Program-made: the position numbers and the translations under genes
Notes under the pieces: generated by a model
Database searches by the model: none
What the model was told of the DNA's origin: nothing
Seen by the model: only the letters and a program-made list of their open reading frames with translations
In this document: piece by piece, positions 29,749 through 32,762 of the stretch
How the letters are laid out: every line of letters begins with the position of its first letter
How positions within the stretch are numbered: the stretch's first letter is position 1
Assembly (NCBI GenBank): GCA_949959305.1
Contig: CATLJA010000002.1
Span: forward strand, 1-64,000
Direction of reading: 5' to 3'
DNA: 64,000 nt
Origin: an uncultured Oscillibacter sp.
GTDB lineage: Bacteria; Bacillota; Clostridia; Oscillospirales; Oscillospiraceae

Positions 29749-29779
29749 TTGACTTTCCCCCTGGTGGAAGGGGTATGGT
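29749..29779 (+). promoter_or_regulatory. MerR-type promoter (TTGACT, 19-bp spacer, TATGGT) upstream of YhfC-like gene
   Basis: ttgact-ttccccctggtggaagggg-tatggt. Confidence 0.75.
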
Positions 29780-29823: not shown

Positions 29824-30585
29824 ATGATAAGTACAGGCGCGGCCGCCCTCATGATCCTGATGGCGGTTCTCACCGTTGTGGGCCCGATGGCGGGTATGCT
29901 GTTTCTCCGCCGGCGGGGCGGGCGGTGGCGGGACTTTTGGGTGGGCGGGGCGGCGTTCTTCCTCTTCGCCATGGTGCTGGAGCAGATCCTCCACACGCTG
30001 GTCCTCCGCTCCCCCCTGGGTCAGATCCTACAGGGCAATATCTGGCTCTACGGCCTCTACGGAGGGCTGGCGGCGGGGATCTTCGAGGAGACCGGCCGGT
30101 TTCTGGCCTTCAAGCTGGTTCTGAGGAAGCGGCGGGAGCGGATCACGGCCCTCAGCTACGGCGTCGGCCACGGCGGAATGGAGGCCTTTCTCCTGCTGGC
30201 TGTGACCTACCTCAACAACCTCTACCTGTTCTCCGTCCTCTCCAACGGCGGGACCCTGGCCCCGGAGCTGACGGCGGCCCTGGAGAATCTGGCGGCGATG
30301 CCCGCCGCCATGTACCTCTGGGCGGGCGTGGAGCGGGTCATCGCCATCACCCTCCACATGGCCCTGTCGGTGCTGGTGTTCACCGCTGTGACCCGGCCCG
30401 GAAAGCGCTGGCTGTTCCCGGCGGCCATCGGGCTCCACGCAGCCGCGGACTTTTCCACCCTCGTGTCCGCCGCCTATCTTCCGGTGGCGGCGGTGGAGCT
30501 GCTGGCGGCGGCATGGGCCCTGGCTCTGGTGTGGCTGGCAGTGGGATTGTATAAAAAACTCCCCCAAACCCCAGAAAGCCCTTGA
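29824..30585 (+). CDS. YhfC-family (PrsW/CAAX-like) intramembrane metalloprotease
   Basis: GIFEETGRFLAFKLVLRKRRERITALSYGVGHGGMEAFLLLA, ...IGLHAAADF; about 7 TM segments. Confidence 0.8.
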   Translation: MISTGAAALMILMAVLTVVGPMAGMLFLRRRGGRWRDFWVGGAAFFLFAMVLEQILHTLVLRSPLGQILQGNIWLYGLYGGLAAGIFEETGRFLAFKLVLRKRRERITALSYGVGHGGMEAFLLLAVTYLNNLYLFSVLSNGGTLAPELTAALENLAAMPAAMYLWAGVERVIAITLHMALSVLVFTAVTRPGKRWLFPAAIGLHAAADFSTLVSAAYLPVAAVELLAAAWALALVWLAVGLYKKLPQTPESP

Positions 30586-30612
30586 CCTTCCCCCTGCTGG
30601 AGGGTATATAAT
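30582..30612 (+). promoter_or_regulatory. MerR-type promoter (TTGACC, 19-bp spacer, TATAAT) upstream of merR-like gene
   Basis: ttgacc-ttccccctgctggagggta-tataat with spacer identical in layout to 29749-29779. Confidence 0.78.
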
Positions 30613-30626
30613 GGGCCAAAAGCGAG

Positions 30627-31283
30627 GTGGTCCCTGTGAAGATCAATGAGGTGGAGGCCCTGGTGGGCATCACAAAAAAGAATATCCGCTTCTACGAGGA
30701 GAAGGGCCTGCTCTCCCCCAGCCGCAACAGCGAAAACGGCTACCGGGACTACGGCCAGGAGGAGGTGGACGTCCTCCGGCGCATCAAGCTGCTGCGAAAG
30801 CTGGGCGTGCCCATTGAGGAGATCCGCCGGATGCAGGAGGGGACCCAGACCGTGGGGGACGGCATGCGCCGCCACCTGGTCACCCTGGAGCGGGAGCGGC
30901 AGAACATCGACGAGGCGGTGCGCCTGTGCGGCCTGCTCAAGGAGCGGGAGGTGCCCCTGGGGGAGCTGGACGCGGAGAGCGTGCTGGAGGAGATGGCGGA
31001 GCTGGAGCGGGCCGGAGCCACCTTCCAGAACAAGCAGCGCCAGGACGTGCGCATCCGCTATGTGGCCCCGGTGGCGGCGGCGCTGGTGATGGTGGCGCTG
31101 ATGTCGGGTGTGGCGGCGGTGATGCTCTGGGCCTTCTGGGCCGCGCCGACTGGCGCGCCCCTGGCGGTGGTGCTGGCGCTGGAGGCGGTCCCCCTGCTGA
31201 TCATCTGCGGGGTGCTCTACGCCCTGTTCCAGCGGATCCGGGAGATCGGCAGGGGCGAGTCCGACGACGCCAAGCAGTACTAG
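30627..31283 (+). CDS. MerR-family transcriptional regulator with C-terminal transmembrane helices
   Basis: KINEVEALVGITKKNIRFYEEKGLLSPSRNSENGYRDYGQEEVDVLRRIKLLRKLGVPIEEI; C-terminal hydrophobic VAPVAAALVMVALMSGVAAVMLWAF and LALEAVPLLIICGVLYALF. Confidence 0.88.
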   Translation: MVPVKINEVEALVGITKKNIRFYEEKGLLSPSRNSENGYRDYGQEEVDVLRRIKLLRKLGVPIEEIRRMQEGTQTVGDGMRRHLVTLERERQNIDEAVRLCGLLKEREVPLGELDAESVLEEMAELERAGATFQNKQRQDVRIRYVAPVAAALVMVALMSGVAAVMLWAFWAAPTGAPLAVVLALEAVPLLIICGVLYALFQRIREIGRGESDDAKQY

Positions 31284-31385: not shown

Positions 31386-31598
31386 ATGAACAAGAGGAGC
31401 AAAAAGAAGATCGCCCCCATTGTGGCGGCGGCTCTGGTAGTGGTGTACCTGCTGCCCATCACAGGCGGGCTGGCGGCGGCTGCGGGGCTGCTGGGGGCCA
31501 CTGTGGGCGGCGCGGTGATCGTGGGCGTGCTGTACGCCATGGGCCAGCGCCTGCGGGAGATCGACAGCGGGGAGGAAGAGGATGCCAAAAAATACTGA
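31386..31598 (+). CDS. Small membrane protein with RLREIDSGEEEDAKKY C-terminal tail
   Basis: MNKRSKKKIAPIVAAALVVVYLLPITGGLAAAAGLLGATVGGAVIVGVLYAMGQRLREIDSGEEEDAKKY. Confidence 0.75.
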   Translation: MNKRSKKKIAPIVAAALVVVYLLPITGGLAAAAGLLGATVGGAVIVGVLYAMGQRLREIDSGEEEDAKKY

Positions 31599-31845
31599 AA
31601 ACGCACAGGCCCAGCGGCGCAGGGAGGCCATCTGGAGCGCGGCTGTCTCCACGGCCATGCGGCTGCTGATGGCCGCGGTGCTGCTGTGGCTGCGGTGGGG
31701 CAGGGACGGGGGGAGCTTCCTCTCAAAGCTGCTGGTGATTGTTCTGGTTCTGGAACTGGGGAGCATTGTCCCCATCTGGATAAATCTGAAAAAAAGGCTA
31801 GAGGAAATACAAGGAGGAGAAGAAGATGCTGCTGCTCAATATTGA
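31582..31845 (+). CDS. Small membrane protein with RLEEIQGGEEDAAAQY C-terminal tail
   Basis: Overlaps upstream ORF by 17 bp; two hydrophobic segments. Confidence 0.75.
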   Translation: MPKNTENAQAQRRREAIWSAAVSTAMRLLMAAVLLWLRWGRDGGSFLSKLLVIVLVLELGSIVPIWINLKKRLEEIQGGEEDAAAQY

Positions 31846-32137
31846 CCACGTGCCCGGGAGGGAGATCGAGGCCCTGGGGATCGTAAAGGGGACCATCGTG
31901 CAGTCGAAGAACTTCGGCAAGGACTTCATGGCCGGGATGAAAACCCTGGTGGGCGGTGAGATTACCGGCTACACGGAGATGCTGGTGGAGGCCCGCCAGC
32001 TGGCCACCAAGCGCATGGTGGACGAGGCGGAGGCCCTGGGAGCGGACGCCATTGTGAACATCCGCTTCGGCTCGTCCTCTGTGATGCAGGGGGCGGCGGA
32101 GGTCATCGCCTACGGCACCGCGGTTCGCCTGCGGTGA
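31826..32137 (+). CDS. YbjQ/UPF0145 family heavy-metal-binding-domain protein
   Basis: PGREIEALGIVKGTIVQSKNFGKDFMAGMKTLVGGEITGYTEMLVEARQLATKRMVDEAEALGADAIVNIRF. Confidence 0.9.
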   Translation: MLLLNIDHVPGREIEALGIVKGTIVQSKNFGKDFMAGMKTLVGGEITGYTEMLVEARQLATKRMVDEAEALGADAIVNIRFGSSSVMQGAAEVIAYGTAVRLR

Positions 32138-32150
32138 AAGGATCCGCCCT

Positions 32151-32762
32151 ATGACCATTCAGGAGAAGATGCACAGCGGGGCGCTGTACCTGCCTATGGA
32201 CGAGGCCCTGTTTCAGGAGCAGCTGGACTGGCTGGACCGGCTCTGGGACTTCAACGCCACCCGGCCCTCCCAGCTGGCGGAGCGGGAGACTCTGCTCCGG
32301 GAGCTGTTCGCGGAGATCGGGGAGGGGTGCTACATCGAGCCGCCCCTCCACGCCAACTGGGGCGGACGCCACGTCCACTTCGGGCGGAACATCTACGCCA
32401 ACTTCAATCTGGCCCTGGTGGACGACACCCACATCTACGTGGGGGACAATACCATGTTCGGCCCCAACGTGGTAGTGGCTACGGCTGGTCACCCCCTTCT
32501 GCCGGAGCTGCGGGAGCAGGGCTATCAGTACAACGCGCCGGTCCATATCGGCAGGAACTGCTGGATCGGCGCGGGGGCCATCCTCCTGCCCGGGGTCACG
32601 GTGGGGGACAACGCGGTCATTGGCGCGGGGAGCATTGTCACCAAGGACGTTCCCGCCAGCGTGCTGGCCGTGGGGAACCCCTGCCGGGTGCTGCGGGAGA
32701 TCGGGGAGCATGACCGGGCCTACTACTTCAAGGACCGGAGGATCGACGGCAGCGCCCTATAA
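32151..32762 (+). CDS. Sugar O-acetyltransferase (maltose/galactoside acetyltransferase family)
   Basis: CYIEPPLHANWGGRHVHFGRNIYANFNLALVDDTHIYVGDNTMFGPNVVVATAGHPL; hexapeptide repeats. Confidence 0.92.
   Translation: MTIQEKMHSGALYLPMDEALFQEQLDWLDRLWDFNATRPSQLAERETLLRELFAEIGEGCYIEPPLHANWGGRHVHFGRNIYANFNLALVDDTHIYVGDNTMFGPNVVVATAGHPLLPELREQGYQYNAPVHIGRNCWIGAGAILLPGVTVGDNAVIGAGSIVTKDVPASVLAVGNPCRVLREIGEHDRAYYFKDRRIDGSAL

Follow-up and report, generated by a model that had tools for sequence, protein, structure and literature searches.

The question raised by this locus is whether a putative membrane protease releases a membrane-anchored transcription regulator encoded next to it. In the window (the whole stretch of DNA that was analysed, 64,000 nucleotides from an uncultured Oscillibacter sp.), yhfC lies directly upstream of a merR gene that is followed by two genes for small membrane proteins and by ybjQ (Table 1). 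The initial annotation saw in the gene pair a possible case of regulated intramembrane proteolysis, in which YhfC would cut MerR loose from the membrane.

Table 1. Positions of the genes and promoters of the yhfC-merR locus in the window
Feature	Position	Strand	Description
yhfC operator/promoter	29749..29779	+	-35 TTGACT, 19-bp spacer with dyad TTTCC..GGAAGG, -10 TATGGT
yhfC (253 aa)	29824..30585	+	PF10086, putative intramembrane metalloprotease, about 7 predicted TM helices
merR operator/promoter	30582..30612	+	-35 TTGACC, 19-bp spacer, -10 TATAAT
merR (215 aa)	30636..31283	+	MerR HTH, dimerisation helix, linker, two predicted TM helices, C-terminal tail
tm1	31386..31598	+	small protein with 2 predicted TM helices, homologue of the MerR TM domain and tail
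tm2	31582..31845	+	second small TM protein, tail the same as in tm1; overlaps tm1
ybjQ	31826..32137	+	PF01906 (Pfam E 1.9e-37); overlaps tm2
maltose/galactoside O-acetyltransferase gene	32151-32762	+	downstream of ybjQ

The genes tm1, tm2 and ybjQ overlap one another and are therefore probably translated from one mRNA. The source bin (G000; completeness 79.5%, contamination 5.5%) holds two copies of the window-type MerR, one on the window contig (C2) and one at C1:56788-57435. The two are only 67% identical and fall in different clades of the MerR tree, so that, given the contamination of the bin, the window contig may stem from another species of the same family. The comparisons that follow are unaffected by this, because many genomes underlie them.

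The YhfC protein belongs to PF10086 (Pfam E 9.2e-43, 146.7 bits against a family cut-off of 24.2), in agreement with the family and motifs first proposed for it. Its putative catalytic residues, which show no variation among 16 homologues, comprise EExxR (E88, E89, R92), HGGxE (H116, E120), E170/R171...H178 and H205. No sequence-level relative of YhfC was found in the PDB. The best Foldseek match of its AF2 model (pLDDT 92) is gamma-secretase APH-1 (TM-score 0.64, probability 1.00, with a non-significant E of 0.057). APH-1 is a non-catalytic scaffold, not a protease, so that the fold by itself does not prove YhfC to be active. A match of this kind is expected, since Rce1, PrsW and APH-1 form a superfamily with the EExxR motif and a shared fold (PMC6588880). 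The window protein, with its EExxR motif and conserved histidines and a predicted fold that may be APH-1-like, resembles both this superfamily and the other YhfC proteins of PF10086, from which it differs in that its gene is apparently under MerR control. By profile and motifs it is a putative intramembrane metalloprotease. Of the function of YhfC "little is known" (PMC13096917), and no dominant partner family was found among YhfC neighbours in Clostridia at large.

The MerR protein carries an N-terminal winged HTH of the MerR type (MerR_1, PF13411, Pfam E 1.4e-21) and, at its C-terminal end, two strongly hydrophobic segments of 19 residues (146-164 and 176-194) with a mean hydropathy of 2.5-2.7, as well as a basic juxtamembrane stretch. 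In the AF2 model (mean pLDDT 87), the HTH is followed by the antiparallel dimerisation helix of MerR proteins (residues 73-102). Beyond a short helix that serves as linker come two long helices (133-169 and 176-206), with only a very short loop between them. Structure comparison places CueR (the best match) and CadR as the nearest PDB entries. The domain layout first described for MerR is thereby confirmed, and its tethering to the membrane is backed as a prediction, which we infer from the hydrophobic segments and the modelled helices. With a DNA-binding domain and a predicted TM region, the protein has the sequence hallmarks of a transmembrane transcription regulator (TTR).

Across the MerRs of the window type, the HTH and the C-terminal tail (QRIREIxxGExDDAKxY) are both kept, with pairwise identities of 81-89% and 73-74%; the TM segments are the least conserved part (about 45-54%). 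When MerRs with and without YhfC were compared, no YhfC-linked signature was found in the TM region. Metal sensing of the CueR kind was considered and rejected on the cysteine pattern: in the homologue alignment only C98 is invariant and a second metal-ligand cysteine after the dimer helix is absent. The window MerR thus resembles CueR/CadR-type regulators in its HTH, its dimer helix and its CueR-like dyad promoter with a 19-bp spacer, but has a TM hairpin where these carry a metal-binding loop.

The same hairpin recurs in the small proteins of the operon. By hhalign, the tm1/tm2 family matches MerR residues 142-215 over nearly its whole length (probability 98.7, E 3.9e-16). The stand-alone hairpin proteins have 70-87 aa and no other domain, and in five genus genomes that were searched for the MerR TM domain every match lies at a merR locus. 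The small proteins resemble free-standing duplicates of the membrane part of MerR, dedicated to this regulator.

A conservation scan of named genomes gave 80 MerR loci, mostly from Oscillospiraceae (Oscillibacter, Lawsonibacter, Flintibacter, Pseudoflavonifractor and Colidextribacter), with a few from bins assigned to Lachnospiraceae or no further than Clostridia. The merR locus is also carried by the cultured species Oscillibacter valericigenes and Flintibacter muris. Of the 80 loci, 72 encode one or more recognisable small TM proteins, and ybjQ is downstream of merR in every one; judging by gene order, the conserved unit is merR, the small TM protein(s) and ybjQ. We know of no function for YbjQ (PF01906), and its invariant place beside a membrane MerR offers a lead to one. 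The yhfC gene is directly upstream of merR in 15 loci and not adjacent in the other 65. On the MerR tree, the yhfC label clusters in one clade (8 changes against a shuffled mean of 15), in which the gene appears to have been lost or gained several times. Conservation of the gene pair across Clostridia, initially named as a check whose failure would refute proteolysis, is thus borne out within one clade but not at the level of the family.

Within the genus, 26 of 37 genomes encode a window-type MerR and 2 a PF10086 YhfC. The PF10086 gene is absent from 24 of the 26 MerR-bearing genomes; some of these are incomplete bins, in which a single absence is no proof, but the pattern across 24 genomes is. 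In most species, then, the MerR system is maintained in the absence of YhfC. In a system of regulated intramembrane proteolysis, the protease should be kept wherever the membrane regulator works; here MerR, operator and regulon are kept without detectable YhfC, which consequently cannot be the obligatory releasing protease. On these counts, together with the lack of a TM-specific difference, the release of MerR by YhfC is not supported as the normal mechanism.

What links the two genes is their promoters. Both yhfC and merR are preceded by a MerR-type operator of their own, with an internal dyad, in nearly identical promoters with a 19-bp spacer; a dyad operator within a promoter of 19-20 bp spacer is characteristic of the MerR family. 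The view that the genes share an operator holds for its sequence, but there are two separate copies (29749-29779 and 30582-30612), the -35 element of the merR promoter overlapping the yhfC stop codon. With up to 3 mismatches allowed, these two are the sole matches in the 64-kb window (0.28 expected). A similar operator is found ahead of merR in 76 of the 80 loci, in most of them at a distance of 54-56 bp from the start codon, and ahead of yhfC in 14 of the 15 loci where yhfC is adjacent. In three of the four loci in which no merR site was found (L138, L156 and L158), yhfC has one, so that the pair may share one promoter there.

The operator was also searched in the 37 genus genomes, with one mismatch allowed and the reversed pattern as control. 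This gave 78 sites against 1 match of the reversed pattern, and only 3 of the 78 fall in genomes without a window-type MerR. Genes behind the operator, identified at representative sites, include a secreted PF00144 serine hydrolase of about 690 aa in about 17 genomes (one member assigned by Pfam, the rest by resemblance of their first residues), OEP-HlyD-RND efflux, TetR-HlyD-ABC and HlyD genes, one MATE gene and, in G034, ybjQ itself. A CPBP/Rce1-type protease gene in G021 (L084:1869-2789, - strand) follows a one-mismatch operator; belonging to the same superfamily as YhfC, it is another possible target of MerR. Both genus genomes with a PF10086 gene, G000 and G025, have the operator in front of that gene, and in G025 this is so even though yhfC is on a different contig from merR and has no merR beside it. 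It is therefore likely that yhfC is a target gene. The MerR regulon rests on a single operator motif, and MerR paralogues with a similar HTH could use some of the sites.

Two observations on individual sites may be added. At L079 (G023:C131:27389 and 28328), two opposite-facing operators are about 0.9 kb apart, one of them ahead of a MATE efflux gene. Five of the 78 sites (G033:C22:4279, G031:C73:15375, G001:C15:25984, G006:C5:20497 and G015:C9:60452) carry TTGACTCTCCCC...GGGAGGGCTTA, which resembles the operator of another regulator; this recurring palindromic promoter is probably the site of another MerR.

A second kind of membrane MerR came from the YhfC side. In a class-wide sample of YhfC loci, together with YhfC loci from relatives, three lie beside a MerR, and these MerRs are of a second type consisting of an HTH, a TM hairpin and a C-terminal zinc ribbon. 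No homology of their TM domain with that of the first type was detectable by hhalign (probability 0.7%). In other Clostridia, yhfC is directly adjacent to type-2 merR in 8 of 12 loci (L226, L227, L252, L253, L228, L254, L255 and L257), upstream in four and downstream in four, and the paired genes overlap; since 6 of the 12 come from genomes picked for YhfC, the proportion may be off as a rate. An independent search of one order found 7 of 8 type-2 loci paired with yhfC, all eight from one genus. Where yhfC comes first (L226, L227, L252 and L253), it is preceded by a gene for a stand-alone TM-zinc-ribbon protein, a homologue of the MerR C-terminus. Credible C-terminal TMs were seen in 1 of about 38 other MerRs of the class (about 3%, in a small sample biased to high-scoring HTHs). 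A third membrane layout is found at L282 (G096:C47:14878, + strand), where a 419-aa open frame combines a MerR HTH with three TM segments and one more domain at the C-terminal end. That yhfC is repeatedly found next to an unrelated membrane MerR suggests a closer tie than an ordinary target gene would have; with stand-alone membrane-domain copies in both systems, this leaves room for a direct connection between protease and regulator.

Our preferred explanation, to which we give a probability of about 0.7, is that MerR sits in the membrane as a dimer and activates promoters with a 19-bp spacer from there, that it senses a lipophilic compound or a disturbance of the membrane or envelope, and that YhfC is an optional effector induced by it. 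MerR would then be a one-component regulator that, from the membrane, binds TTGACCTTCC-N7-GGAAGGTrTA promoters as a dimer and presumably activates them by distortion of the DNA, as in CueR or BmrR. Sensing would fall to the TM hairpin, either by itself or jointly with the small hairpin proteins of the same operon. Besides autoregulating this operon, MerR would switch on an envelope/efflux regulon made up of the secreted PF00144 serine hydrolase, OEP-HlyD-RND and TetR-HlyD(-ABC) pumps and YbjQ, which an intramembrane protease (YhfC or CPBP) would join where one is present. YhfC would not be needed for the release of MerR, although MerR or the small hairpin proteins may in turn be subject to feedback from it. 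The domains, conservation, operator, regulon and small-protein homology on which this model draws are established at the level of sequence.

The model of proteolysis assumes that YhfC cuts the MerR hairpin, so that the DNA-binding part is freed or active MerR is removed; the stand-alone hairpins may be substrates as well. Such cleavage would explain the recurrent pairing, and it agrees with the finding that in a clade of type-1 MerRs yhfC is adjacent and preceded by the same operator, with its position next to an unrelated membrane MerR in 8 of 12 type-2 loci, in either order and with overlapping genes, with the scarcity of C-terminal TMs among the other MerRs of the class (about 1 in 38) and with the invariance of the catalytic motif residues. 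We nevertheless consider it doubtful, since yhfC is not adjacent in 65 of 80 MerR loci and a PF10086 gene is missing from 24 of 26 MerR-bearing genus genomes, the MerR TM region has no YhfC-specific change, and the best fold match of YhfC is a non-catalytic scaffold. If YhfC cleaves MerR or the hairpin proteins at all, it would do so as a further layer of control on top of the basic switch, and even this is not what we would expect. The broader proposal, that YhfC proteases act specifically on membrane-anchored MerRs or on stand-alone copies of their membrane domains, and that such arrangements evolved on two or more occasions from TM domains of unrelated kinds, is likewise doubtful.

Two further explanations dispense with a membrane regulator or with a link between the genes. 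BmrR and similar MerR relatives bind lipophilic drugs, and a soluble MerR whose hydrophobic hairpin did the same, with no membrane insertion, would suit the efflux genes of the regulon. The hydropathy of the two 19-residue segments, the basic juxtamembrane stretch, the long AF2 helices and the homologous hairpin proteins of 70-87 aa that consist of nothing else make this improbable. It could also be supposed that yhfC has some other function and stands upstream of merR by accident, as might be expected of a family with no dominant partner at class level; however, the operator in front of yhfC in 14 of 15 adjacent loci, as well as in front of the unlinked gene of G025, renders a chance neighbourhood very hard to believe.

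In the proteolytic response to envelope stress by PrsW, RsiW and SigW, the anti-sigma factor is cut by PrsW. Similarly, the window YhfC would be an intramembrane protease, from a related superfamily, that goes with an envelope-stress regulon; unlike PrsW, this putative protease is encoded by an apparently dispensable target gene. As a DNA-binding domain joined to a predicted TM region, which would regulate from the membrane, the window MerR is comparable to TTRs such as ToxR, CadC and S. aureus MbtS; a survey of TTRs describes more than 50,000 membrane transcription regulators (PMC10269533). It differs from them in its MerR HTH, its promoter of the DNA-distortion type and the operon copies of its own TM domain. 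Of the cases described so far, MbtS comes closest in the shape of its operon and in being controlled by a protease: its gene comes last, after two genes for predicted TM proteins, and the protein is degraded by the membrane protease FtsH (PMC9223772). The HTH of MbtS is classed as Xre (PMC3616918). MerR is not discussed in the main text of the TTR survey, whose supplementary Table S1 could list membrane MerRs (PMC10269533). "Membrane-bound MerR" and similar phrases were not found in a literature search that covered the main text of openly readable papers.

For the Oscillospiraceae of the gut, the system would amount to a sequence-defined MerR switch that works from the membrane, with its own operator and an efflux/envelope regulon, and it would place the uncharacterised YhfC family in a stress pathway. 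That two unrelated systems both encode copies of the regulator's membrane domain suggests a shared principle of control, by titration or by hetero-oligomers. If YhfC does act on membrane MerRs, these would be MerR switches tuned by a protease, and the YhfC family would gain its first known role.
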